A DNA stretch of 64,000 bases, taken from NCBI GenBank assembly GCA_026419785.1, contig JAODTK010003198.1, positions 372,001 to 436,000 of the forward strand. The letters run 5' to 3'. Under the pieces are notes generated by a model, which saw only the letters and a list, made by a program, of their open reading frames with translations, did no database searches and was not told the origin of the DNA. The first letter of the stretch is position 1, and each line of letters opens with the position of its first letter. Positions 3,708-60,700 of this stretch are shown piece after piece. Origin of the DNA: Sclerodactyla briareus. Lineage: Eukaryota; Echinodermata; Holothuroidea; Dendrochirotida; Sclerodactylidae. A program made the position numbers and the translations under genes.

Positions 3708-6700
3708 GTGAATGCAACATGACAGCTACCAGATATGTGTTATTCCTCACAAGGTTTAAACTTCATCACTTTTCATATATACTTGAAAAACCTGAACTGC
3801 TATTGCTTCCCATATGCACTACTGGAGTTTTTCAGTAGGGAAATGAATCAATAATATGATATAGCTAGATTATCTTTTGTCCTAGCACAATTTTCTATTC
3901 ACCATTTGGTGAACCCATAGGATCCTATTGGCTCTAGACGACCTGCACCTCATGCAATGCCACTTGTGAGTTTAATTCATTAACCAAAGGGTCTCATATG
4001 TGCCATCATTCAAGCAGACGTATCCTGTATTTTATGTGTACATATTATCTGTCCATATCATGCACCCACTGTATTTTCTGTGTCCCTCTGCACCCTTGTG
4101 GTGTCCAGATTGCACATCACTCTCTGCAACTGTACGCTCTGTTGATCGGGTCACAAAACTAAGAAAAAAAAAAATCAGACAAGCCATGAAGATTGAAGTG
4201 ACACTCATATTTTCCATATTTTTTCATATTTTTTCCACTCCATCCGATTCCAGTTCTTTGTGACTGACCTCCTACCCGTGAAGTATGGAGAAATAAAGTC
4301 TTCTCAATCATAAAGAGGCTGGATTTCTCTCCAAATACCTACCATTCCTCTATACATGGTCTTTGTACCATGAAGCCACAGTGACCAACTTACTGGAGAC
4401 AGTACTGTTTTACAAGGTGGGCAATTTGAGGAAATTATCCTTGAATGCAATAGGCAACTATGCAATGCAAAATTTATTTCTATAGAGCAAGCAGGGAATC
4501 AGAGCAGTTGCACAGTAGAGAAGTTTTGGTGTGTACAAGATATTCAAAGAGGTGACTGAAAAATTTTTTTTTCGGTATTCATAGAACTCATAGTAAGTAC
4601 ATATAATACAGATGACAGCATGTCATGATAATCAATTTGAGAGCAAAGTGCTTTCGTCTACTTGCTCAAGTTCTGTTTCTACAGAACACTGAGAACAGCT
4701 TGGAGTTTTCATCAAGATTGGTACTGGTACTCCATCAATCATAAAGCTGGCAGTACTCACCTAAACAAAGTAGCAGTCAATTGCATACCTATTCCAGGTA
4801 TGCAATTTCATTCCTCAGAATCTCAAAATGAAAATTAACTAAGTAGTTGCCACTTGACTAATTACAATTAAACCAGCAATTAAAACCTGCAAAATAGAGG
4901 GCAAAGTTATTGCACGAAGAGCCCACTTCAAACTCATCTGGGATTTACGTGGGCGACATGTGTGCCAAGTTTCAGATCAGTTGGATAAAGCGTTGAGACT
5001 ATTACCGTAACGCAAATTCTTCTCTTCTGGTGTGGAGGCAGACCCGGCGGTTTTTGTCACAAGAAAGGCAAAACCATAATTCCTGGAGTGGAGATTTGAT
5101 AATCATGATGTGTGGTGTGAATTATGTTCAGTAGACTGTGTTGGTTTGTTGAAAAGATAGTTGATAGTAACTGGTCAAATGTCCAGGGTGATTCAAGGTG
5201 TCTGATCTGCATGGTGGGGGAAGACCTCTGAAGACTTGGATTGAAGTTTTGTGTAGCGACCTCGCTGCTGAAAGTGTAGACCCATATTTTGGCCCCTAAC
5301 AGGATGAGTGGAAGACTGGAAGGTGTTGATTTTACCCAATTTTCCCAGCTCGCAGGACTCCTGACCGCTGATGTAAAACATTTATGATGATGATAATGAT
5401 ATTGTTAAATGCAAGCAGCTTCTGGAAAATTCAGAAGGGTGGAGTGCTGTTGCTATTCCAACAGAGGCCCGGTCATGTTCATTTTACTCAAATTTTTTCC
5501 TGATAAGAGTCCTGATAGGGTTCTTTTGGAGAGGGCTATTAACAGCACAGAGAACCAAGAAGTATTTTCTGACCTGACACAGCACTACTATGCTATTAGC
5601 GTATTTAATGTTTAAAAATGGTTTTGATGGTTTCAAAACATTGAGGATACAGATAATCATAATACACCCCTCCAACATGTTCAAATCATTGATTTTCACT
5701 TTCACACTGCTTTGGCTTTTGCTATTGAAAGGGGATTTCTCAAGTCGCTCTTTAACATGAACCATGCTATGCTGCTGAGGACTGTTTGATCTGCTGGACT
5801 TCTTGTCATCGTAAAATTTTGGACGCTGATTGAACGTATGTATGTTAATATTCCTCCCAGATCGTGGTTTGTTTTCACTGTTGACAGAACGCAGAATAAG
5901 CACATATCATGACTGCCTTAGTTCAGCTTGGTGAAGAGCAACTCTCTCTTTGATGAAGTGTAAAACATCGGATGTTAGTACATGTCCGTTATTGAGCTAT
6001 TCATTCAATTGATTATTATTCAATGAATTTAACCTGTGTCAAGTGTCAGAAGGTCAGGGAAACCGGTACTTCAATTACAATTCGATGAGATGGATAACAA
6101 TGGCAGTGAGTAAGGTCCTGAACGATATGCCATAATATGATAATGAGAATGTGAAATCTATATATGCTTTACACCGAAGTGCTCAAAGCGCTTTAACCGA
6201 TATTACCCTGTTCATACAGTAGGAAGCCAGTCAACACACTTCGGATAATCCCGGCATCTACAATCAGCGCCATTTGTGTTCTGAAACTCACAGTCAAACC
6301 ATTTGTACACTTGGTTGGAGAGAGCAAGCGGGATAAATACCTTTGCTCAAAGTACACAAGGCGGGCTCAAACCACGACCGTCTGGGTTACAGGCTCGATG
6401 CCTTAGGCCATCTGGCCAAGCCATCATCCATCATAGTTGGAGAAGTAATTCGTTATTGGTGATCCTATCCCTGCCTGGGGGGTGTGATCCAGCTGTGGAA
6501 GGGTGGGGGTGCTGTCACCACTGGCCAACTGTAGTGGTAATCCCATACCCTGCAGTGGCACAGGGGATCTGTAACACCACTTACAACAGTCTGTAATCCC
6601 ATCCCTACAACGGTACAGGAGGTCTGCACCAGCAGCACCACCTGGCCAACAGTAATGGTAATCCCATACTTTACAATAGCACATGGATCTGCACCATTGG

Positions 6701-9700: not shown

Positions 9701-12700
9701 AATGTTTCAGTGCAAAGAAGTCAGTGTCTCGAACATGAAATATATAGTGTTTCAAAGCTGTTTCACCCTTACAGAGGACAAACTGGAGATAGCGTGGATA
9801 GGAGGTTTCAGGACATCAGGTAATTGACTATGGTTTCCATGCCACACGACGAGTCTGGTCGTTACTGAAGAAACTGAATCAGAAGGTCACAAGGTCATTA
9901 AGTCAAAATTGGTCTCAAAAGGTCAAAGTAAGTAAAAGTTCATCACGAGATGTAGTTTGGCACCGACTAACAAAATTCTCCATAATGCCAACCCCCAAAA
10001 TATTTTGTTGCGAAGGTATATGAAGATTAAAATTTATCAGTGTTTTAGAGGGCTTTTACCCTTTTTACAGAGAACCCAGCTGGAAATAGCAAGTGATAGC
10101 AGAGTTTTAGTTTGTCAGCTGCAATTGTGGTCTTATGGTTTTTGCCCCAACAAATGAGTTGTCGTCACAAAATATTACCCAAAGGTCACAATGGTTCAAT
10201 GAGGTCGTCGAAGGAGGGTCAAATGGGGTAAAAGTAGGGGCACCAGATGGATTTCACCCTAGACAAACAAAATTCTGTTCATTACAACAGCTCTGAAATG
10301 GTTTTCGTTGCCGAATAGAAGGATTGCGCATGGTGACCTTCACCGACTTAACCCTACACTAAAAACAATTTAGGTTCACCTCACATATGTTGCAACCCAA
10401 TACCGATAATATGAACGTGATAGATACTTGCATTCTATAGATATCATGCTCACAAAGTCTAACTGTGCCGTCGGGACCTTGAAATGACCTTGGAAATGGC
10501 GCTAAAACAAATAGGGTTCATTCCTAACCACAGAGAAGCCCCGTGCAGCTTCATTAGATATCGTGGATGACAAGCGGGGTGTCACACACACACACACACA
10601 TCAACACACACATACATATGCACAGACATGACTGCATAGATCCTTTTGCCATTTAGCCAAAGGAGGCGGAAATAGAATATTTGATTCTAGATTACTTAGT
10701 TTCTTAACCATTGATATCTCTGTTCATAATAAGTTCTTCTGGAGGCCTCACCTGGCCCAAAATTTTGTCAGATTTATGTTATGTGACAAATTGAAAATGC
10801 CAGGAAATTAACATATCCCTCATATGAGCATTATGCCTCCTATGATTGTGTACAGAAATGTGTTATTAGATCCATGGAGAGTAAAGATAGGGAGTAATGA
10901 CATTGATGCAGCCAAGAGTTAGTATCAACATATTTAGCTATGTAGTACAGCAAATCATTTGCTTTTTCTCTACCTAAAATGCCAGCATATTTTTACTTAC
11001 GTCAATATTTTTTATCACCAGCTTACCCATGATGTGGCCCCAGGATGCGGAACACACATGATATACCCTGCCTACTGGTACAGTGATTGATTGACCCGCC
11101 ACTGGTGCTGTATGAAAGATGGTAAGTATCTCCAAGGAACCATATCTGACATGACATACCTTGTCTCCTGGTACATTTGATTGATAACCTGACATGGTGC
11201 AGCATGAAAGATAGTAGGTATCTTCAAGGAACCATCTCTGACATGACATACCGTGTCTCCTGGTACATTTGATTGATAACCTGACATGGTGCAGCATGAA
11301 AGATAGTAGGTATCTTCAAGGAACCATATCTGACATGACATACCTTGTCTCCTGGTACATTTGATTGATAACCTGACATGGTGCAGCATGAAAGATAGTA
11401 GGTATCTTCAAGGAACCATCTCTGACATGACATACTCTGTCTCTTGGTACAGTTGATTGATAACCTGACATGGTGCAGCATGAAAGATGGTAGGTATCTT
11501 CAAGGAATCATATCTGACATGACATACCGTGTCTCCTGGTACATTTGATTGATAACCTGACATGGTGCAGCATGAAAGTTGGTTGGTATCTATAAAGAAC
11601 CATATCTGACATGACCTACCCTGTCTCCTGGTACATTTGATTGATAACCTGCCATGGTGCAGCATGGAAGTTGGTAGGTATCTATAAGGAACCATATCTG
11701 ACATGACATACTCTGTCTCTTGGTACAGTTGATTGATAACCCGCCATGGTGCAGCATGAAAGTTGGTAGGTATCTATAAGGAACCATATCTGACATGACA
11801 TACCGTGTCTCCTGGTACAGTTGATTGATTACTCACCATGGTGCAGCATGGAAGTTGGTAGGTATCTATAAGGAACCATATCTGACATGACATACCGTGT
11901 CTCCTGGTACAGTTGATTGATAACCTGACATGGTGCAGCATGAAAGTTGGTAGGTATCTATAAGGAACCATATCTGACATGACCTACCCTGTCTCTTGGT
12001 ACAGTTGATTGATTACTCACCATGGTGCAGCATGGAAGTTGGTAGGTATCTATAAGGAACCATATCTGACATGACCTACCCTGTCTCTTGGTACAGTTGA
12101 TTGATAACCCGCCATGGTGCAGCATGGAAGTTGGTAGGTATCTTCAAGGAACCATATCTGACATGACATACCGTGTCTCCTGGTACATTTGATTGATAAC
12201 AACGCCATGGTGCTGCAGGAAAGTTGGTTGGTATCTATAAGGAACCATATCTGACATGTTTCTACCCTGTCTCTTGGTACAGTTGATTGATACCGCATGG
12301 TGCCGCATGGAAGTTGGTAGGTATCTATAAGGAACCATATCTGACTGAACGTACCCATGTTTCCTTGGTATCAGTTGATTGATACTCGCCATGGTGCGCA
12401 TGAAAGTTGTAGGTATCTTAAGGAACCATAGTATGACATTACAATACCATGTCTCTTGGTAGCGTTGATTGATTACTCACCATGGTGCATCATGGAATTT
12501 GGTAGGTATCTATAAGGAACCATATCTTGACATGCCTACCCTGTCTCTGGTACAATTGCTGATAACCACCATGGGCAGCATGGAATTTGGTAGTATCTAT
12601 AAGGAACCATATCTGACATGAATACCCTGTCTCTTGGTACAGTTGATTGATACTCCCCATGGTGCTGCATGATAGATGGTAGGTATCTACAAGGCCCATA

Positions 12701-15483
12701 TCGACGAGACTACATGTCTCTTGGTACCAGTTGATGATAACCCGCCATGTGCAGCATGAAGTTGGTAGGTATCTATAAGGCACCATATCTGACATAACGT
12801 AAAGCATGTCTCTTGTACAGTCGATGATAACTTCCATTGTGGCAGCATGAAAGTTTGTATGTTTCTGGAAGGAACCATATCCTGACATACCGTGTCTCCT
12901 GGTACATTTGATTGATAACCTGACATGGTGCAGCATGAAAGTTGGTTGGTACTATAAGGAACGCATATCGAACAGACATACTCTATCTCTTGGTACATTT
13001 GGTTGCTAACCCTCCATGGTGCTGCATGAGAGAGTTTATGATTTATAAGGAATCATATCTGACATAACATACCCTGTCTCTTGGTACAGTTGATTGAAGA
13101 ACTCACCATGGTGCTGCATGAGAAACTTGGTAGATAGCTATAAGGAACCATTCTGGCGATCATGACATACCATGTCTCTTGGTAGCAGTGATTGATAACC
13201 GCCATGGTGCTGCATGCAAGATGGTTGGTATCTACAAGAACCATATCTGGTATAGACATACCCTGTCTCTGGTATCAGTTATTGATACCCCGCCATTGTG
13301 CAGCAGAAGTTGGTAGGTATCTATAAGGAACCATACTGACATGACCTCCCCTGGCTCCCTTGTACATTGATTATTACAAGACCTTCCTGTCCCGTCAGTC
13401 ACAGTACCTGTACCACTAATAGAAATGGTAGTATCCATACTGGACGCACTATCTGACATTGATGTCATCATTATCAAAGTCATGTCATATCTCATGTCAC
13501 ATCCTTGTATTGAGTGATGACCCTTCATACATCCACATGAGAGATGGTAGGGCAGCACATTGGTCTTCATTTTGCTTGGATGTGGACCTGACTGGAAGAT
13601 GTGAAAAGTCATGCAGGATTTCCTCCTGTTGTCATAGTTGGCACTGGATCGAGGGATGGACTTGTGCCATAAATGTCCTCTGATCTGGGGGGGGGGGGGT
13701 TATCAGGATATGAAGGAAATTCAGCTTGACATGGAGTCCAAGCTACATCCTACTAATGAGCTGTCAAACTAACTGTGACATATTTGTGCAATGTATAATG
13801 TTTCTGGGGTAGCTTGTACAGTTGGTGGGTACATTCCTATGTGTTGTCTTCATGAATACACCTTGGCCTGAACCCCTACGAATGACCCATCTGGAGCTGT
13901 CTGGTGTTTGCCTACATCCTAGTTTGGTCCCATTGAGGGGTTATGTGATCCTGCCCCACATCTTCCAAAGTTACTCAGGCTACTCACTGATAGGACCCTG
14001 TATCCATGTTAGGGTTCTCAGAATGGGGCCAAGTAATGGTCACCCTAGACCTGGTCACTTGCTTGAAGAGGCCGGATGTTCAGAATCACTGGGTGCTGCC
14101 ATGAGTAGTGACTCCCATTAAATCCTAATAAAGTCCCAGTTGAACCCTTTATTTGTCCATTCAAATGAACAGGTCTCATTGTAAAATTTGGACAACATCC
14201 ATCCATTTCATTTGGTTCAATATGGAATATTGAAACATTCAAACAAGTTTTCATGTAGGGTAATGGGACTCAATGGGAATGTTCTGCAGTGGGGTGCAGT
14301 AAAAAAAAAAAACAATTCAAAAGGCCATGTCTTTCAAAGATGTCCAATGTAGAAACTGCCAGCAGACCCAGAGGAACTCAATACCATACATTTTGGTATT
14401 TTCTTTAACTCTTCAGGGAAGTTCTTCAGTACATCAATGGCAAGTGGCAGTCGGTGAGTGCAGCTGAGGTCGTAGGCAGTTGAGCAAGTTAGAGGGCCAG
14501 GTCTGGATCGCTCTGTTCAACCTATTGGTGGGATCTCAATGTATCAACCAGATACACTACAACGTCATAACAAAACAAATACTCACGTATGATACTGCAG
14601 TCTGAGGACATTGAAATTAAAATTGCAGTTTCCCATTTCACTTGTCATTGAATAAAACTTGAGAACACCTTAACATGTTCTTGTGTTGTTTTTCACCCAC
14701 TTGAATGGTGATAAGCACTTTGACCTTGCTCTACAGTTAGTGCCAACCTTCTCACGAAATATTTAGGCCGGAATGAAAACATGGGTGCACATTCCCAGCG
14801 GGCTTTCATTTCCTCCACTGAGCATCATTTCAAGTGGTCAGTGCTTCCCAGAAATCCCTTCCAGTTTCAAGCAGCATTAGCAAGTGTCTTGCAGCCACTC
14901 CTTGATATTGTTGTCATCTGTTAAATTCCAGGTGAAGGAGCCCTCCACATACTCTGGCAGTACTCGTGCCTCTTGGCAATCAGACTCATAGACTGGAATT
15001 GATAATGTGCTGTGTGCATGTACATGCAAAGTGGAAATGTCACGTAATGCTCCCCAGAACAGCATTTGACCTGACAGATTGGATTCCTGGTCATAGCCTT
15101 GGGCGAGTTTTAGATAAACCTATCCGCAACGTTAAAGAAGAACTTATCCATTTTTTCTTCATTTTTTGTCCAAATTCAAATCGACAAACAAAAATATTTT
15201 CCTACTGAGCATCCCGCCGTGATGCTTCCAGCAATTTCTGGAAAATTGTTCTGTTCCTGCATCTTGGATATAACTCCAACTGATAGCTTCAATGATATCT
15301 ACCTACAGCTCAAAGATGCTGTATAGCACATACTTGTACAAAGGTAGAACTAACGAGCACCTTACAGAAAAGGACCTGAACTGTTTGACAACATATCTAA
15401 CCTTACAAGTATTACCATCAAACATCACAACAATTATGAAATGATTTTTCATTCCTTGGATGGGAGTCCCAATGTATGATGTG

Positions 15484-18500: not shown

Positions 18501-21078
18501 TTTTGCATTTCCTGTAGTTGCTCAAAAATTTATCTAAAGTTGTTGTGATTAGTGTGCAAAGTTGACCAGCATGGCTGCTGCTGGTACTAGCACAGTTGGT
18601 ATAGCGTCTGTCTACAACCAGGAACTCACGGATCAGTGTTCAAATCTCAGTTGGGTTCCCCCCAAGAAAACACCCCCAAAACTTAAAAAGTTATACCTCT
18701 TGCTCAAGATGATGCCGCATTTGCTGCAATACCTTACCCCCCAAAATATAGGCATTGCCTGAATATTCCTAGCGGACTGTTTGGGGTGGATGAACTGGGT
18801 GTCCACTACTTCAACACTTACACAGGTTGTGTTAATTCATCTTTAAATATATGCAGACAGTGAGTGTTTATGAGTGTTAAATTGTTATTCATAATATTTC
18901 ATGGCTCAAAATATTGAACATTTCACTAAAGTTCAATGATTAGGGTATTATGAACAACTGCACAACATTCATTGGCTGTTTCGTATAACACTAGCGATAA
19001 AGTTTGGAGACTTCTCAATGTTAATGTAAATTTGTGGGAAAAAATTGTGACAAAATTTACGATGCTATATATGTTTGTACAAATACTCCTAGAGCAGTTT
19101 ATGTCAAATTACTAGGAAATAAAACAAAGAAAATTGTCAGGGTAACACTAGCTGTACTGTTGCAGTCGTTTTGCCAACATAATGTTCTATCATTAGAAGA
19201 AAAAATCATAATCTGAATTCACATTATTGTTGGTAACTAAGTTTCCATGAGAACTGTTTGCCAATCATGTAATAGTACTGATTCTTTTCAGTGTCATGTG
19301 ATGACAATTGCCCAATTTATTGACAGGGATATAATGAGGTGTTATGTTATACCTAATTACCTTTATATATTGTACCTAATTACATACCTATGTTCACCTG
19401 TGTTACAGAAAGTCATGCATTGAGGTGTGAAACTGATGATCCTTGTACAGTCATTCCCATTGAGGAATGCATATTCACTGATTATCCTGAACAGTGAACA
19501 GATAGAATCATATGGAATCAAATTCATTGTGTAGGACATGCTTTCTCTTCAAACATCAGCTGTTCTCTATCATGTAGATTTAATTGCCTTTCAAGAATTG
19601 GTCAACTGGAATCACAAAAAAAACAGCCATTGTTTTTAAACATCAACTGTTCCCTAGCTGTTAAAGAGTGGACTCATTTTTTTCAGGTTCGCTGACACAT
19701 ACAATATTGATGTTGTAGAGAACCTGCTCTCTGATCCACCAAAGTGTGCCTTATGTGGAGACACTGCCCCCAAGAGATGCTCAAGATGTAAAAATGAGTG
19801 GTATTGGAAGGTAAAAAAACTATTCAAGTTTGTTCTATGCTGCCTTTCCCTTTTTCTGCTTCAACCTGTCATAAGTGGTGGGTCTTGAAAAAACAATATA
19901 AAGGGTATGGAGTGTCAATTAACCAACCAGAATCTTTGACTGTTTTGTGATTTGTAGTTGCATTTATCTATTAATGTATTAAGGTTTTTTGTCTCGCCTA
20001 AACCGTGGAACCTGTCCTGCTGAAAATTTTGTGGGAGGTGTACAGTGAAAAGTTGTCGATATGCATCCACTTTTCGACCTGGCTTACTAAATAGCATAAA
20101 TTTGCATAATTATTGAAAATTGGCCCGAAAGCTTGCGTACAAGATACCTCTTGATTGATAAATGCATTCATTGGTGATGCAGTTCTTCGTATATCACAAC
20201 TACGAAGTGTACACAAACTGATTGGATTCGCAATTTATGTGAGCTTTAAAAATTGTTGGCATTTTCATGAAACTCGTGGACATGGTTTATTCATATGTCA
20301 TCAAAAGTCATTCAAGGTCACTCATGGAGGGAAACTGCCAGATATTAACATTCTCTAGTGAATATTTTGGGTTAGGGTTTCCATCAGAAGCAATGAAAAC
20401 TTTGCAATGAAAATTTTACATGAAAACCATCATGTCACTCTAGGTCATTTGAGGTCAAACTGAAATAAAATAAAGTTGGAGCCCCTCCGGAACCCTCCAG
20501 CAATGTTTCGTCTGAATTTATCAGCTGGTAACCACTACAGCTCCTAACAACAAGAATACAGCAATATGTGAAAACAATAGGAGGGCTCCTGTTAATATAT
20601 AATGAAATCCAGCACTCTACATTCCCTTGTTGAATAAAACCAAAAATGTGGATGTGGAAACCCCTCTCTTTCTCCTGATTTGTCGTGTTGATAGATATAT
20701 GGTCAAATGGCCAGAAAGTGTCCCCCACCTTCTTGGCCCCTGCACAAGATTGAAGAATGTAAGGTATATGAGCTAGGCAGGTTTTGTGAAACAAGTGTAG
20801 ATTGATTGATCCTACAGAGAAATTATTCCTTGCTTCTGTGATAGTTTTGTTGTCTTGCCTGAACAAGGAGACACAGAGTGATCAGTTTGTTGTGTGTGTG
20901 TCTGTCTGCCTGTGATGATTACATTCCCTTGTGTGAACTAGTCGGTGACAATGCAGGATGGCAACCTAACAGAACATTAATGGTCCTATTTGGTTTTTTT
21001 TTCTATCGCAGGGAGTGTCAAGTTAAACACTGGAAGAAGCATAAACCTGCCTGCAACATCGTAGAAGCAGCATCATAG
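3598..21078 (+). CDS. zmynd10: ZMYND10 (DNAAF7) orthologue, multi-exon locus
   Basis: ZMYND10 is a cytoplasmic dynein axonemal assembly factor. It works with LRRC6/DNAAF11 and HSP90-type chaperones to preassemble outer and inner dynein arms of motile cilia (family knowledge). Ten exons or exon candidates, in family order, are visible: 3598-3707, 4254-4416, 7984-8044, 8864-8958, 11022-11121, 14417-14586, 16279-16404, 18337-18454, 19687-19810 and 21012-21078. Their total (about 1.13 kb) falls short of the usual roughly 1.3 kb by about two exons: the first coding exon and one between 4.4 and 8.0 kb, which I could not find. Nearly all exons need 1-2 small indel corrections to read through, yet the AG acceptors and almost all GT donors are good. 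Introns are retained, so this is not a processed copy. I favour sequencing or assembly indels over true pseudogenisation, but the sequence cannot decide. Confidence 0.9.
4254..4416 (+). CDS. zmynd10: ZMYND10 exon, conserved VW...LYHEA region
   Basis: The acceptor is CAG at 4251-4253; the donor is TACAAG/GTGGGC at 4416/4417. Three reading-frame segments together give the family pattern: VTDLL, then [20 protein letters not shown], then IPLYMV, then [17 protein letters not shown]. This matches the ZMYND10 region in which a conserved Glu-X-Trp is followed by a Pro-(I/L)-Tyr-Met-Val strand and a His-Glu-Ala helix. Moving between segments needs indels near 4276, 4335 and 4362. No single frame is open across the exon. 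Confidence 0.88.
4417..6480. other. ZMYND10 intron, no further exon identified
   Basis: Mostly unique-looking AT-rich DNA. The family predicts an exon for a D-Y-C-x-R-K-L-T helix between here and 7983, but no match was seen. A 139-residue minus-strand frame (5484-5903) has no recognisable domain and is probably chance. The stretch 6145-6240, with AAAGCGCTTTAA, resembles the common invertebrate repeat type that reads 'trinucleotide AAT run, then TATATAGCGCTTT'. Confidence 0.45.
6484..6720 (+). repeat. Short degenerate tandem repeat (about 55-65 bp unit)
   Basis: Three to four degenerate units share the pattern CAGTGGCACAGGGGATCTG with CACC-CTGGCCAAC and TAATCCCATACC. Further copies at 7085-7180 lie on the other side of a SINE, as if the SINE inserted into this array. 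Confidence 0.65.
6735..7083 (+). mobile_element. tRNA-derived SINE, copy 1 of a two-copy family
   Basis: The head has a pol III A box (TAGCACATTGGTATAGC) and a B box (GGGGTTCGATTCC at 6784). The 3' domain (about 6945-7083) has TTATTCCGTGTAC, TTTGCAGCTGACAAT, CAGTATCTGGTCTGCATCC and TCTGCTCGGCAGTATATACC, ending in an A run. The same 3' domain occurs at 37595-37740. The head does not fold as a working tRNA gene, because the 5' acceptor arm is not matched. Confidence 0.75.
7984..8044 (+). CDS. zmynd10: Probable ZMYND10 exon, variable linker
   Basis: A 61-bp segment lies between a good acceptor (TTTGCAG ending 7983) and a consensus donor (GAG/GTATGT at 8044/8045). One frame is fully open ([20 protein letters not shown]). 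It sits where the family has its poorly conserved linker, between the DYC-RKLT helix and the segment that begins with the next exon. Support comes from position and splice signals rather than residue identity. Confidence 0.45.
8045..8863. other. ZMYND10 intron
   Basis: Intronic DNA with one imperfect duplication: the segment around GGAGGTATGTGGAGGCTACC (8552) recurs about 73 bp later as GGAGGAATGTGAAGGCTACC. Nothing else is recognised. Confidence 0.5.
8864..8958 (+). CDS. zmynd10: ZMYND10 exon, central helical region
   Basis: The acceptor is CCCAG ending 8863. The frame reads [19 protein letters not shown] and then ILRYLNESF, matching the family block in which an E-L-x-x-Q-x-E-L-x-F-E-I-A segment leads into KA-(L/V)-S-(V/I)-LRYI. 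The clean frame meets TGA at 8948. One extra T in the TTTT run would account for this and would let the exon end at the weak donor AACT/GTATTA (8958/8959). The 3' boundary is therefore approximate. Confidence 0.88.
9266..9279 (+). repeat. Poly-G run
   Basis: About 14 consecutive G in a purine-rich context within a ZMYND10 intron. Confidence 0.85.
9830..10545. repeat. Degenerate GGTCA-type tandem repeat in a ZMYND10 intron
   Basis: There are recurrent AGGTCA/GGTCAAA/AAGGTCAC words with CAGAGAACCCAGCTGGAAATAG-like segments, spaced roughly 140-300 bp apart and strongly diverged. The same style of repeat occurs at 20230-20460, 23480-25090 and 27420-28330. Such degenerate repeats are widespread in marine invertebrate genomes. 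A short CA microsatellite (10587-10603) follows. Confidence 0.55.
11022..11121 (+). CDS. zmynd10: ZMYND10 exon that founded the adjacent 92-bp array
   Basis: The acceptor is TTTATCACCAG (ends 11021); the donor is GATG/GTAAGT at 11121/11122, an excellent 5' splice site. It reads LTHDVAP, then [13 protein letters not shown], with a one-base gap near 11043 and a frameshift near 11093 in the LIDNPPW segment. This matches the family block ending R-M-x-x-T-H-(N/D)-(L/I)-PCLLV-x-L. The last 65 bp are the part repeated in the array that follows immediately. It is the only copy with an upstream acceptor and the full exon, so it is probably the authentic exon. Confidence 0.82.
11122..13378 (+). repeat. 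zmynd10: 92-bp minisatellite made of a ZMYND10 exon/donor junction
   Basis: There are about 25 tandem copies. The GTAGGT/GTAAGT junction recurs at 11122, 11214 and then every 92 bp. Each unit is about 65 bp of exon plus about 27 bp of intron. The exon part reads [16 protein letters not shown] followed by C-S-M-K in the best copies; others carry NLTW or LCLLV variants. It is followed by the intron start GTAGGTATCT and AAGGAACCATATCTG. A TGA just before the HDIPC codons closes the exon frame in each unit, and no unit has its own acceptor, so the array should be intronic. Because 92 is not a multiple of 3, minus-strand frames are open by accident and are not genes. Copies before about 12,200 are nearly uniform. 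Copies after that carry many 1-2 base deletions and shorter periods. Confidence 0.93.
13379..14416. other. ZMYND10 intron right of the array
   Basis: Unique-looking DNA with a G run at 13686-13699. A 99-residue plus-strand frame (13822-14121) has no family signature. Nothing else is recognised. Confidence 0.45.
14417..14586 (+). CDS. zmynd10: ZMYND10 exon, GQVWIAL region
   Basis: The acceptor is CTTCAG ending 14416; the probable donor is CTCAC/GTATGA at 14586/14587. It reads [18 protein letters not shown] and then [19 protein letters not shown], matching the family block around G-K-(L/V)-Q-x-(F/Y)...W and KL-(D/E)-GQVWIAL-(Y/F)-NLL. A missing G near 14422 and an indel near 14473 are needed for one frame. 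A good donor-like TCG/GTGAGTG occurs inside at 14453/14454. The spacing between W and SKLEGQVW equals the family spacing, so I read through it. Confidence 0.88.
14587..16278. other. ZMYND10 intron
   Basis: It contains a GT dinucleotide microsatellite (15487-15525) and otherwise unique-looking AT-rich DNA. No exon was recognised. Confidence 0.5.
15487..15525 (+). repeat. GT microsatellite
   Basis: About 19 uninterrupted GT dinucleotides. Confidence 0.95.
16279..16404 (+). CDS. zmynd10: ZMYND10 exon, LLDQ helix region
   Basis: This 126-bp exon is fully open and needs no correction. The acceptor is TCCTATAG (ends 16278); the donor is GAGCAG/GTGAAT (16404/16405). It reads [20 protein letters not shown], then [12 protein letters not shown], then ILLEQ, matching the family block L-R-x-(F/Y)-(L/I)-T-(D/E)-x-LLDQ-(L/M)-P...L-A-H-L ending at (V/L)-LEQ. 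It is the cleanest anchor for the orthology call. Confidence 0.95.
16484..16855 (-). mobile_element. SINE-like repeat, minus strand, in a ZMYND10 intron
   Basis: It starts with an AAT trinucleotide run and ACCGTTTCTTATATAGTG, the usual tail of a repeat class common in invertebrates. Further on it has GCGCCTTGCCCAAGGACAC and AGGATTCAAACTCC, which on the minus strand read as the CCTTGGGCAAGG core and a pol III B box (GAGTTTGAATCC). The palindromic GGCC-rich end (CCGGCCAGG...CCTGGCCGG) is unusual. Confidence 0.55.
16857..17033 (+). repeat. Dispersed 175-bp repeat, copy 1
   Basis: It shares CAACC-GAATATTCCGGGTT, GAATTCCA-CAGTCACCGG, CACTTCATGGTTC and GATATTTGCAAT with 52364-52530 in the same order and orientation, at roughly 75-80% identity by eye. 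No coding frame or terminal repeat was recognised. It directly abuts the SINE-like element to its left. Confidence 0.75.
17034..18336. other. ZMYND10 intron
   Basis: Unique-looking. A splice-acceptor-like site at 17069-17074 followed by GTTCCGAGAAAGTTGG was considered as an exon and rejected, because the matching family segment occurs at 18337. Confidence 0.45.
18337..18454 (+). CDS. zmynd10: ZMYND10 exon, GKWxAIAKHQ region
   Basis: The acceptor is TTCTTCAG (ends 18336); the donor is AGAG/GTTCTT (18454/18455). It reads [12 protein letters not shown], then [10 protein letters not shown], then KDDMRQQAR. This matches the invariant GKW-x-AIAKHQ of ZMYND10 and the helix that leads into the R-x-(W/F)-A-(D/E)-TY motif of the next exon. 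One base is missing between the Thr and Gly codons (near 18374). Two compensating indels surround TGA/TAG triplets at about 18410-18417. Confidence 0.88.
18583..18665 (+). mobile_element. tRNA-derived SINE head
   Basis: The A box-like CAGTTGGTATAGCG (18594) and B box-like AGTGTTCAAATCTC (18635) are spaced as in a tRNA. The flanks do not pair as an acceptor stem, so this is a SINE head or tRNA pseudogene inside an intron rather than a functional tRNA gene. Confidence 0.55.
18666..19686. other. ZMYND10 intron
   Basis: AT-rich, no exon or repeat family recognised apart from short internal duplications (for example TACCTAATTAC at about 19350 and 19375). Confidence 0.45.
19687..19810 (+). CDS. 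zmynd10: ZMYND10 exon, first half of MYND zinc finger
   Basis: The acceptor is TTTTTTCAG (ends 19686); the donor is GGAAG/GTAAAA (19810/19811). It reads [19 protein letters not shown], then [20 protein letters not shown]. The MYND ligands C-x2-C and C-x2-C are present. At the next ligand the sequence reads TATTGGAAG where the family has Tyr-Cys; two bases appear to be missing, which removes a zinc-binding cysteine and shifts the frame into the last exon. Confidence 0.95.
19811..21011. other. ZMYND10 last intron
   Basis: It contains a degenerate GGTCA-type segment at 20230-20460 and otherwise unique-looking DNA. A 143-residue minus-strand frame (20435-20866) shows no recognisable domain. Confidence 0.45.
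21012..21078 (+). CDS. zmynd10: ZMYND10 last exon, end of MYND zinc finger
   Basis: The acceptor is TCTATCGCAG (ends 21011). It reads [16 protein letters not shown], then I-V-E-A-A-S and a TAG at 21076-21078. It supplies the second half of the MYND finger (C-Q-x3-W-x2-H-x3-C). In the family this finger binds LRRC6. The protein would end six residues after the last cysteine-asparagine pair, a typical length. A second open frame continues downstream and is reported as a finding. Confidence 0.93.
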
Positions 21079-31473: not shown

Positions 31474-32430
31474 GGTGACAGCCCGAGGTTCATAAGGGTT
31501 TATCAAAAGGTCGTTTTGTCATAGGATTTTATTTCATAAGGCCTTTTGTTCATAAGGCCCGTTATTCATGATGGCCGAAAAGGTTCTTTATTCATAATGT
31601 CCGATATTCATATCCAACAGAAGGTCCCGATATCATATATAAAAACGGTCCGTTATTCATAATAGTGAAAAAGGTCCGTTATTCATAATGAGAGAAAAGG
31701 TCGATATTCATAATAGGAAAAGGGTCCGTTATTCATAATGAGAGAAAAGGTCCGTATTCATAATAGGAAAAAAGTCCGTTATTCATATTAGGGAAAAGGG
31801 TCCGTTATTCATAATGAGAGAAAAGGTCGATATTCATAATAGGAAAACAAACACCGATCGTGGATCTGCCAGGGATCGCACCTGACAAAAATGTACAGTT
31901 TTAGGGTTTGATTCTTCAGGACCTCGATAGGTAGAACATATGCCTTGGCAAGTATATCATTGAAAAGAAACACATTATGAACGGACCTTTCTCGCGATTA
32001 TGAATGACGGACCTCTTTTGCTATTATGAATAACGGACCCTTTTCACTATTATGAATAACGGACCCTTTTCACTATTATGAATAACGGACCTCTTTTTGC
32101 TACTGTGAATAACGGTCCCCTTTCGCGTTTATGGATTACGGACCCTTTTCGCCAATATGAATATCGGATTTTTTTTACTATTATGAATATCGACCTTGGT
32201 GCTCTGTTATGAATTAGACCCTTTTGATAATTTGAAAAACGGACCTTTTTGGTCATATGAATATCGGACCTTATGAACAAAGACCCCTTTTTTATTAAGA
32301 ATATCGGACCTTTTTGGTCATTATGAATAAACGCGACCCTTTTCCGGAAAAATTTGCCAGTTATGAATAACGGGCGTCATGAACAAAAGGCCTTATGAAT
32401 AAAAGGCCTTAGGAACATCGGGCGGTCCCC
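31474..32430. mobile_element. Foldback element with 8-bp target-site duplication
   Basis: 957 bp. The left arm (to about 31850) is a run of units like TTATTCATAATAGTGAAAAG followed by GGTCCG. The right arm (from about 31976) is the same unit inverted, with a 26-bp period clearly visible at 32045 and 32071. The ends GGTGACAGCCCGAGGTTCAT and (reverse of the right end) GGGGACCGCCCGATGTTCCT match at about 20 of 24 positions. ATCGGATT occurs directly on both sides (31466-31473 and 32431-32438). The central spacer of about 125 bp has no open frame. The element is non-autonomous. Frames within it are translation artefacts of the repeat. Confidence 0.88.
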
Positions 32431-39265: not shown

Positions 39266-41914
39266 GCTTCTATTTTATCCCGATGACCAGAATAAACGCT
39301 TCAGAATGAAGTCCGAATCAAAATTCATCTGCTGACATTATGAGCAAAGTAGACTCTTATAATCTTTTGAAAACATCTCTTGCACCCACCGCGTTCGTTC
39401 ATAATTATATTTACATAAACTACTATTAGCGCCCCTGGAAATCGCTTGTCTGCTCACCCTATATTATTTGGTAGCAAAGTTAGGTATTGAGGCTTCAGCG
39501 TAGCACGATGACCCTCGGCAAAATGTGTCAATACTGTCAATGTCTGCACGTGTTTATTTTTTCCGTCTGCCCGTATTTGATTTGTCTGCCCGTCATTTGA
39601 TATGTCTGTCTGTCATTATCCAGTATTTATGCCTATTGTACTTCATTCTGATATACTTTCGACGTTCGTGGAAGGCAAATAAGAAAACGTCAGACACTTA
39701 AATGGGATATTCCCCTCCTCCAACGACTTACACCTATTAATTTGACTATCACTATTATTCGGTGTGGGGGGGGGCGGGTATAAACAAGCGGTTTAGCTCA
39801 TTAGGGTGGGGGGGGGGGGGGGGGGGGGGGGGGTTGTATCCCGACTTAGGAAAATGAAAAAGAGTGTTGTGACGAATTGATTGTCTTCCCGCTATCACAT
39901 CAGATATGATACATTATTTGTCCCCTGAACTGAACTGCACGCATGCCTATACAGTTAGGTTCCGAGCAACTTTGTAACTTCGAAAAACAAAGCGTGGTAA
40001 TGATCATGCTGTGTACAAGTGGTAGCTATGTCAACAGTATATCTGTACGGACTTGACAAAGCAGGGCGTGGGGCTCGGGCGGTTGGGAGCGACATCCCCC
40101 AGTAAAAAAGTGAGCGGGAAGCATCATCCGCCCGTATCCGAGTCAGCAATTCCCCTTTTCATTTCAAATAAATGATGACATCAAGTTATTACCGGATAAA
40201 AATCATAATCTCTCGTCTGCTGTTCAACGATATATATGGCCCGTTTGTGTTATCGCGATATACGTAGGCCCAATACAGCCGTGGTACATTATCCATATTA
40301 CCGTCCCGATATTACGTACAATTGGCACCTTCATATGTTTTCGGCAAGGACAAAACTGTTGAGCAATGGAGTGGCCAACATTTCGACCTGTGAATTCTTT
40401 TATATGCTGATTTTTTTCGTAACATTTATTGAACAATGCGAGCCGTGGTACGCAGCTTGTTTCAAAAGCCAAGATGTGTAAATTTTAACAGAACATGAGG
40501 CAAATTAAATACACTCATCGTGTGATCGACCCGTCGGAATGACTTTATATATGTGTCAACACATTCATATACTTTTAGACATGTTCAAATAATGTTCCCA
40601 TATGCCTATTTTGTCGGACTGTACAAACAGAATCTGACCCCGCAGCGGATCATATCAAACAAGCCCACATACAAGGCATATAGGAACCTACTTGGTTAAT
40701 GAACAGATCACACGAAGACGCCGTGGATGATCGTTCGGATCTGATTAAAAGTCGTTCTGCGTTCAACCACGGATGAACGAAAACCTCGTACAAATCTGCG
40801 CATTTACCCCGTAGAGTAGGCCGTGAAGCCAACCACCGTGATCCCATGAACCGCCTCCACTTGCCACATCAAAATTCGAACACTATGCAATCGGTTGGTC
40901 TAAAATGACCGGTAGGTAGTAACTTTCCACGAAAGTTTAGTTCACCGATTGAACTATTGCTTAGTCGGTGCATTTACTCACACGACTTAAGGAATGTTAT
41001 TATTTTCGCCATTGCCAATCAGGGAAATTATTCAACATTTAGACTGGGTAGGCGTAGTCACTCAAGAAGCTTGATTTAGGTGGCGTAAGTAATGCATTTT
41101 CCATAGAAATACCGTAACTAACTGTGGTAGTTTCTGCAGAATTACAGCAATCGCTGCCACATTACAATCTGCCAGGCTTAAATGGAGGAAGGCTGCAGTG
41201 GCGGAACCGCTCAATCTTTTCTTGTAGAATGAACTCTGCATTAGCCGAGGAGCTGGCTCAGAAATGGATTCCAAGGTCACAATTGCAGTTATGCTCAAAT
41301 TTAATCATGTTGAGGGGTTATTTTCACGAACACTGTACCTAAAGTCGCTGTTGAAAGTACTATTCCTATCTACATCTACCACACAAAGAAGTTTCACGGG
41401 AAAATAGATGATGATGAGCCGTGAAAATTGGGTCTCCATGTTGGTCAAACCCCATGAAGATTAGATTCTCCCGTCCGAGACGATCGTATAAACTGTCTTT
41501 CGGAACTTACAGGTTTCTGTTTCCAGATAGATTATACATTTCTCAAATGCGTCTCTTCTATCGTTGTTGAGATTTGATCTCTCTACGTCGTTTCCATTCT
41601 CCACTCCTACGCATTAAATATTATTTGTTTGTTCGGAAAACCCTGCCTCAGCATTCATTTGATGTGTGATCATTCCTAGAACACAAACACGACACGAATT
41701 TTATACATACCATTTCCTTCCTCATTGTAATTAGAAGTAAAGTAATATAAATCATGGAACGTATATGGATTGTTTAATTGTTTAGGCCGTCACAAAAATA
41801 AGAAAAGTGATCGTCTGCAAAAGTTAGAGAACGTGTTTGCGAGTAAAAAAATATAACCTTATATAAGTATGTAACGGAGAGGCGGGGTGGTCGGAGATCT
41901 GGAAGTGAAGAGAA
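39266..41914. other. Intergenic, nothing recognised
   Basis: It contains a 26-base G run at 39808-39833 next to GGGGGGGG at about 39767-39774. No credible coding frame. Confidence 0.4.
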
Positions 41915-54280: not shown

Positions 54281-56700
54281 CTACTGGAACTTCTGGACAG
54301 CTGAGAAAAAGCAGTACCTGTGGGCACTGTGATGGTGGGGGGGTTGCCCACCCATCCTGAAGTGAACGAGTGGCTTGTACCTTTCGACTACCACTTTCAT
54401 TGGAGGCCCAAACCTAGTTTGCCCCTTCAAGAAATGTTTGTTCACGCACCCGTACCACATCTCCAATGGCAATATTCGGAGATCTGGCACTACTCTAGCA
54501 TCAGTGTATGTTTGGAATGCTCTTCTTTCTCACCTGTCCTGATTCATGGTCCAATCGACCATTACTATGTGTGTAGGTACCCTTTAATGTCCAACTTTGT
54601 ATGCATTTTCTTCCATGCAGCAACTCGGAAGGGGACTTGCCTGTGGTTGCTTGCGGAGTGCACCTGTAAGCTAACAGCATGTCCAAGGCGGCAATCAAGT
54701 CAATACCATATCGGGACTTCAGTAGGTCGTTCGTGATATCATGGTCGATAGTATCGAAGGCAGCTGAGAAATCAAGCAGCACCAAAATAACCTCTTGGTA
54801 CCGTCAACAGCCTCCAGAACATCGTTATGAATACGTAGCATCGCTGTCTCTGTGCTATGCAATTTCCGGTAGACAGGTTGATATCTGGAGCGAAGACAGT
54901 TCCGATGGAGATAAAGATTCAGCTGGTGCAGCTGCAGGCTCGAGGACTTTGAAGATGGAACTTCAGGTTGTTGGATATTGGGACGTAAGGTTGGAGGTCA
55001 TTGCGGTTCAGGCTGGTGTCTTAGAGGAATCGCCTGCGACGTCTCAGTGAATCAGGATTAACTCCAGTTGACAACGAATAATTGATGTACCAGTCAGATG
55101 AGGGAGCAGATGATCAAGCATGACTTGAGGAGGACGGTAGGGATAGGATCGAGTGCACAGGATGACGTAGTCGATTGGCTGATGAGTTTCCGAACAAGAT
55201 CATTGTCGAATTTCTCGAACGATGTAAAGGTGCTCGCACAGGTATTGCGAATATCCACAGACAAATCGGGAGGGGTGATATTGTCAAGCTTTTTACGGAG
55301 GTTCCGAACCTTGTTGGAGAAGAGCGTGGCGAAATCATCGGCACGATCCTCTGATTCGTAATCAGGAACGATACGAGACTCATGAGGATTGCACATACGG
55401 TCGATGAAGCGTAAACAGTGCCGATCGTCGCGTGTTTAATCTGATTCCTGGTGGAAAGGTGCGTTGTCGTAGATGTCGGTCGTAGCTTGTCTGCCCTTGA
55501 ACTTGACTCTGGTCAAACCATGTGAATGGCACAATAGTCACTTCGGCACCAGTATCAACGGTTTCAGTTACGCAACTGGACACTATCGCAAATTATACAG
55601 TGCCCTTGAGTTTCTTAGGACTTGTTCCACTTTTGACATGTACAGTAAATCGGCATCTACATCCGCATCAGTAGACTCTACTGATAGAACATGAATTGTA
55701 CTCCCACTGACAGTGGACTCATCTGAATCGGATCCATCAATTTGAGCAACAGTATCAGCAGCTCACTTCTGCACACCGTAGGGTAATGTCCTACCTTTGA
55801 CATTTGTGACAGGTCGCAGTCTTGGCTTTGCATGCGGGATTATTTGCAAGATGCTTCGGTGATCCACAACGAAAACAGTGTTTGGTTGACTCACCTCCTC
55901 CCCCTGCTTTTAGCATTTGTTAAATATGGAGCGTTTCCTTGTCTTTCGAGAAGCAGGTGGGTACTTGGTGGAGTAGCACCCGAGCGTAACGCCAAATTGA
56001 CATTAGAATTAAAAGTCCCTGTAAGCAGCACAACTCTCTCAGTGCTCCTTCGATTTGACGGCCAATTTCAACCGTTTTCCGAGGGTCAAATTGGGTTCAA
56101 GCAGTAGCCTCTCTCGAATTTGTGAATTTGTAAACTTCTACACGATCTGGTCCCGGATCATTTCGTTCCGTAATCCCTAGAAGAGCAATGTGCCACCAGC
56201 TCCATGCAGTTGCCTGGGCAATATTGTTCCAGTCTCATCGGAACGTTGTGCCCTTTGGTGAATTTGTACTTATGAGAGACATTGACAGCTGACGAAGTAT
56301 GCTGTCAAATTTGTTACAGCTCTATCATACTCTGAAATTGGTGTGGACACAGGCCCATGTATAGGGATGTGGTACTCGTGATGAGTGTATCAGCATTAGT
56401 AACAGGCCTATCGGCAGTTTGGGACTCACCCGTCGTAGTATTGGGTTTGCATCGTCTGGTAATGATGGCAAAGGATGAAAAAATTGTTGTCCCTCAGAAC
56501 CAAAGCAATGGAGCAGAAGGGCCTTTCCGTAGCGGGTTCGTACAAATCGCATTTCACCGAAGCAATCAAGTAATTGTCGAATGACTGTTTCCACAGTGAC
56601 CAAGGTATTGTAGGCGTACACGGATGTGGAAGGAAAAAATTGGGGCGGTGGAATCGATGCCATCGTTCATAGAATGTAGAAATAGAAGCGTTCAGGTGAG
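54281..56700 (-). mobile_element. Ty3/gypsy (Mag/SURL-like) retrotransposon relic with LINE segment inside
   Basis: Read on the minus strand. A gag region (56680 to about 56050) carries WSLWKQSFDNYLIA and KALLLHCFGSEGQ in shifted frames. A zinc knuckle near 55800-55880 reads CFRCGSPKHLANNPAC, then C-H-K-C. The aspartic protease has DTGAEVTIVP at about 55556-55527. After a LINE-derived block (55396-54700), the integrase end shows LLAYRCTPQATTGKSPSELL and then the C-terminal KGQTRFGPPMKVV (54440-54400). RT and RNase H of the gypsy element are absent. Several frameshifts are present and long terminal repeats were not identified. It is a dead copy. Confidence 0.85.
54700..55396 (-). mobile_element. 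LINE reverse transcriptase fragment inside the gypsy relic
   Basis: The minus strand reads ADDFATLFSNKVRNLRKKL, then RKLISQSTTSSCALDPIPT and LLKSCL, and further down VLLDFSAAFDTIDHDI. These are the N-terminal and block A regions of a CR1/L2-group LINE reverse transcriptase. It begins after the gypsy protease and ends within one open frame that continues directly into the gypsy integrase (about 54700). Confidence 0.88.

Positions 56701-60668: not shown

Positions 60669-60700
<32 letters not shown>

Follow-up and report, generated by a model that had tools for sequence, protein, structure and literature searches.

A minisatellite of the mirage type at an exon-intron boundary of the ZMYND10 gene in the sea cucumber Sclerodactyla briareus

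The human gene IFI6 (6-16, G1P3) is said to contain a minisatellite with multiple splice donors, reportedly described by Turri et al. in 1995. In this gene 2 downstream repeat units are reported to serve as donors, with 3 mRNAs produced (PMC4526556). Internal tandem repeats at exon-intron boundaries have also been described in human segmental duplications, where they have been linked to cryptic splice sites and to the appearance of introns (PMC2812944). In amphioxus, tandem repeats that span such boundaries have been named mirages, and examples have been reported in Adh3, the globin genes BflGb6 and BflGb9, TnC, and PGBD5 (PMC3087553, PMC3902484), of which TnC and PGBD5 were added in the PGBD5 paper. 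According to the globin paper, the data on Adh3 and the globins suggest that regular splicing is undisturbed although many of the repeats hold splice signals. The same paper reports length instability and somatic instability of the mirages, proposes intron gain, and suggests that cephalochordates in general may have mirages. Models for intron gain from boundary repeats have already been published.

We analyzed a minisatellite in the cilium gene ZMYND10 of S. briareus, located in a 64-kb stretch of DNA (372001-436000) that we refer to as the window; genome searches covered the 319-Mb assembly of 3171 contigs. Like the amphioxus mirages, it is a minisatellite-like duplication of an exon-intron boundary that lies beside a real exon and has splice signals in many of its units. 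Unlike them, it occurs in an echinoderm and has about 25 units of 92 bp, as compared with 3 and 6 units in BflGb6, each 150-160 bp long, and a unit length of 10-72 bp in Adh3. The units contain putative splice donors. Those of IFI6 are described as used in the transcript, whereas use of the ZMYND10 copies would, in the predicted products tested, lead to an early stop. The position at an exon-intron boundary is shared with the repeats in human segmental duplications, which differ in being variable, in being located in human paralogues and in mostly altering the coding sequence. No report of an echinoderm mirage was found in searches of an open-licence library. An earlier note on this DNA had called an intronic minisatellite founded on a coding exon and its 5' splice site unusual, which was too strong a word since the papers on amphioxus already name the class; the present work adds an example from an echinoderm, the size of that array, and more examples from the same genome.

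The exons of ZMYND10 were located on the + strand between about 3.6 and 21.1 kb with tblastn, using human, mammalian, and echinoderm ZMYND10 sequences; the start of the protein was not among them. A conceptual exon translation, joined by hand across frameshifts, was then used as the query for orthologues, and among the best 120 of 275 matches listed the closest were those of Apostichopus japonicus (58%) and Holothuria leucospilota (56%), followed by those of a brittle star and a starfish. The assignment of the exon at 11022-11121 to ZMYND10 was confirmed, both by tblastn and by the sea-cucumber orthologues. The MYND exon had one match in the whole assembly, and the gene is an echinoderm ZMYND10 found as a single copy by the genome search. 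The other tandem repeats seen in the ZMYND10 introns were short and none was seen to cross an exon, and no RNA families or tRNAs were found within the window.

The exon whose 3' end forms part of the founder unit (11022..11121, + strand), identified from the sequence and tblastn and frameshifted in the assembly, is preceded by an AG acceptor at 11020-11021 and followed by a GTAAGT donor at 11122, and the first repeat unit is continuous with the full exon and its acceptor, as had been claimed. The exon ends in GATG before GTAAGT, which, judged from the orthologues, would be phase 1. The H. leucospilota ZMYND10 protein (P0122) reads RMLNTHDVPCLLVQLVEDRPWCCLRDGK over this exon, where the window gives 19 residues at 11042-11101 and, in another frame, 10 residues at 11097-11126. 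The next exon was placed at 14417..14586 (+ strand), with its start taken from the acceptor and the orthologue reading and with an approximate 3' end, and it is frameshifted in the assembly as well. In Apostichopus and Holothuria, the annotated ZMYND10 protein continues past DGK with no insert there.

Tandem Repeats Finder reported one array at 11056-13372 with a period of 92, 25.4 copies and 83% matches, and our own segmentation yielded 25 full units, the founder counted, followed by a truncated last unit (13339..13380, + strand) at which the array ends. Of the 92-bp unit, about 65 bp correspond to the end of the exon (66 bp in the founder, which has indels) and 27 bp to the intron, in agreement with the composition and the approximate copy number proposed before. 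The unit spans the exon-intron boundary, and the founder lies in the real ZMYND10 exon. The founder unit (11056..11148, + strand) comprises the exon 3' end at 11056-11121 and the intron start at 11122-11148, and contained 6 private substitutions and 3 indels. The eleven units 2-12 (11149..12160, + strand) were exactly 92 bp long and free of indels, with 1 private substitution in 1012 bases, whereas units 13-25 (12161..13338, + strand; 1178 bases) were irregular, with 41 private substitutions and with 26 bases inserted and 44 deleted. The 92-bp step that had been described for all copies was free of indels in units 2-12 but not in the remaining ones.

Splice signals were retained in many but not all units. 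The exact motif GTAGGT, which the earlier note had placed in every copy, was identified in 16 of the 25 units, and GTN[AG]GT in 21 of 25, including the founder with its GTAAGT. A 16-residue peptide that the copies were said to still read was found exactly in none of the 25 units in any of the three forward frames; the closest versions, with 15 of 16 residues, were in units 8 and 12. The identity was 13 to 15 residues of 16 in units 2-12 and 2 to 12 of 16 in units 13-25. The exon part of the copies drifts, from PPW to LTW or SPW and from Q to H.

The founding of the array on an exon and its 5' splice site was borne out by the alignments. The local score between founder and unit was 173, as compared with 32 for the next best place in the window and 24 for the best of 1000 shuffled units. 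Furthermore, the Holothuria ZMYND10 protein was matched at 30 bits or more by 14 stretches of the sense strand of the array and by 0 of the opposite strand, and 25.8 bits was the highest score among 200 shuffled arrays. A search of the assembly that scores the best candidates only and skips very common words gave 24 matches to the unit, all at the ZMYND10 locus; the check for a satellite at many loci thus favored the exon origin. The founder differed from the unit consensus at ten sites, and 6 of the 10 founder alleles were private to it. The founder allele was shared by units 13, 18, and 22-24 at site 53, by units 2-5, 18, and 24 at site 63, and by units 2-5, 12, 18, and 24 at site 77, and the alleles at these 3 sites were missing from units 6-11 and 14-17, with sequence error clouding the distal half. 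Such patchy sharing is as exchange inside the array would give.

Splice sites were scored with a human-type matrix applied to echinoderm sequence; of eight acceptors placed in the gene, the two printed at 4245 and 19688 fell on wrong bases and were left out. On this scale the founder donor reached 9.87 bits, a score attained by 2 of the 993 GT sites that the gene has beyond the array. In the other 24 units, the highest-scoring GT close to the junction reached -5.1 to 7.75 bits (the value for unit 15 being that of a neighboring GT). The donors are therefore not equivalent, in contrast to the earlier suggestion of one acceptor facing about 25 equivalent donors. The ATGGTAGGT donor of units 5 and 18 scored 7.75 bits and the TTGGTAGGT donor of eleven units 6.26 bits, and thirteen unit donors outscored the inferred donor of the gene at 19811 (6.06). 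Nor was there a single acceptor, since an acceptor-like AG was present in 16 of the 25 units, at 8.9 bits or more in 7 of them and at up to 9.02 bits for the acceptor-like CTCTGTCTCTTGGTACAG. The acceptor of the exon at 11022-11121 was itself weak (3.15 bits): of 928 other AG sites in the gene, 141 scored as high. Given the strong unit donors, the acceptor-like sites and the weak exon acceptor, some mis-splicing could therefore occur.

Since the assembly has frameshifts in the founder exon as well as in the exon after it, the reading frame was inferred from the orthologues; a naive join of the two exons reads 15 residues and then a stop. Skipping the founder donor for a later one would bring a TGA at 11178..11180 (+ strand) into frame, and all 13 donor extensions tested, from 24 possible, stopped there. 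It had been argued that such extensions would include TGA, as was indeed found, and that they would shift the frame unless the number of added units were a multiple of three; such multiples offer no escape, however, since the TGA already lies in the first added unit. The 7 microexons tested, from the 16 acceptor-like sites, stopped at the third codon, and the alternative products thus ended early in 20 of 20 cases.

We consider it likely that the array is a donor-side mirage that is tolerated, with the founder donor kept and the array spliced out with the intron. We infer the following course of mutation and outcome of splicing. A tandem duplication of the exon end and the 5' splice site would have seeded the array where the next intron begins, and the array would later have multiplied and been partly homogenized by unequal exchange or slippage. 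The spliceosome would most likely keep the founder donor, as expected from its being the strongest by the matrix and joined to the full exon; the array would then be removed along with the intron, and a transcript spliced now and then from one of the copies would contain a premature stop. By analogy with the amphioxus genes, splicing is probably undisturbed and the array silent, with IFI6 as a counterpoint that shows repeat donors can be used. The ZMYND10 proteins of Apostichopus and Holothuria, which lack an insert, and 2 more exon-donor arrays in the genome support a tolerated mirage. If the gene is spliced normally, one strong donor followed by up to 24 weaker copies would constitute a natural test of 5' splice-site choice.

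There is an appreciable chance, although short of even, that the size of the array and its distal half are largely an assembly artefact, in which the true array is shorter or longer and was badly rendered or stacked by noisy long reads. We noted an abrupt change at about position 12161, from 0 indels in 1012 bases to 70 inserted or deleted bases in 1178, and an excess of indels over substitutions is typical of raw long-read error rather than of decay. Several ZMYND10 exons were frameshifted, and the controls were affected too: an alpha-tubulin gene (L010) contained five frame changes inside its exons and a second locus (L011) contained more, and stops were present in 11 of 39 kinase matches and in 1 of 7 tubulin-family matches. 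Against an artefact stand the shared diagnostic variants by which the units differ and the joining of the founder to unique exon sequence, and a real array is therefore very likely. The existence of the array, the founder, and the first dozen units are trustworthy, whereas the distal detail, the distal donors, and the copy number are uncertain, and much of the irregularity of units 13-25 is probably sequencing or assembly error. The clean core fits both recent homogenization and a pile-up of reads. A ZMYND10 pseudogene was rejected as a candidate, given that the MYND exon matches one place and that a conserved control gene is frameshifted too, which makes error likelier than decay, if short of proof. 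It was also noted that, with the indel errors of the assembly, family searches returned few or broken matches.

The earlier note had proposed that the array could tune ZMYND10 output, with decoy donors and acceptor-like sites competing and the array length setting the share of ZMYND10 mRNA that escapes nonsense-mediated decay. We regard this as unlikely. The units that keep GTAGGT, the several unit sites with scores comparable to those of inferred genuine sites in the gene, the 7 units with high-scoring acceptor-like sites, the early stops in every alternative product tested and the reported use of repeat donors in human IFI6 (PMC4526556) are all in line with competition. The founder donor is, however, clearly stronger by the human-type matrix, the published mirages are reported as regularly spliced, and there is no sign of selection keeping the copies, the exon part of which drifts. 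More improbable still is that the array is on the way to becoming a gained intron or new exons, in which case an acceptor-like site and a donor within a unit would delimit microexons of about 37 nt. The high scores of CTCTGTCTCTTGGTACAG, the lengths of the microexons tested (six of 37 nt and one of 34 nt) and the published repeat-based models of intron gain are compatible with such a step, but all 7 microexons add a stop, and neighboring 37-nt microexons would be separated by an intron of 55 nt, which is short. That the unit is a dispersed satellite resembling the exon by chance was rejected, at the sensitivity of a genome search that skips very common words, on the basis of the single locus and of sense-strand ZMYND10 matches above anything in the shuffled arrays.

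A tolerated mirage may have counterparts in the same genome. We surveyed 36 loci that were picked by exon match (30 kinase, 2 tubulin, and 4 ABC loci, several of which overlap) with a search of the Tandem Repeats Finder type, at a cut-off of period at least 25 and at least 2.5 copies; ZMYND10, which was chosen for its array, is outside the 36. Arrays that overlapped the matched exon were identified at 2 of the 36 loci, L030 and L017, and the tested stretches of both exons matched kinase families in Pfam. The L030 array (L030:1713-2146; G000:C3080) consists of 5.7 copies of a 77-bp unit and starts inside a kinase exon that ends ...LMITEYLDW before GTAAGG, with units that repeat the last bases and a GTATGT-type donor. 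The L017 array (L017:1510-2287; G000:C144) consists of 4.4 copies of a 171-bp unit and starts inside a kinase exon that ends ...FTQAING before GTAAGTT, with units that carry about 150 bp of exon and the donor. It was also observed that an in-frame TAG is common to the founder exon and units 2-3 at L017:1510-2287, while unit 4 has TATGAG instead, a difference that error, collapse or exchange between units could explain. A further candidate, L015, was rejected as its arrays flank a kinase exon on both sides with no overlap.

We therefore raise, tentatively, the idea that donor-side mirages are recurrent in this genome, with exon ends seeding minisatellites that are tolerated via a preference for the founder donor and that provide a standing supply of decoy splice sites, from which animals other than lancelets could gain introns or exons. 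Three mirages in one echinoderm assembly would widen the phenomenon in the deuterostomes and tie the birth of minisatellites to intron gain. Some overlap between arrays and exon ends is expected by chance, since minisatellites are common in the genome. Moreover, no enrichment of donors was seen across the genome minisatellites, with 4 strong donors as compared with 3.0 expected in 14 array rows, among which one array was counted twice and the three exon-donor arrays were included; this argues against a general rule of donor seeding.

Elsewhere in the window, 2 short tandem arrays at 31599-31847 and 31980-32270 have units that by eye look mutually reverse-complementary, as in an inverted pair of minisatellites. 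An open frame at 54501-54803 (- strand) contains DFSAAFDTIDHD, a putative motif like that of LINE reverse transcriptases, followed by a piece that presumably resembles a retroelement integrase. Long runs of G were also noted in the window, for example at 13688-13699, 39804-39833, and 60669-60699.
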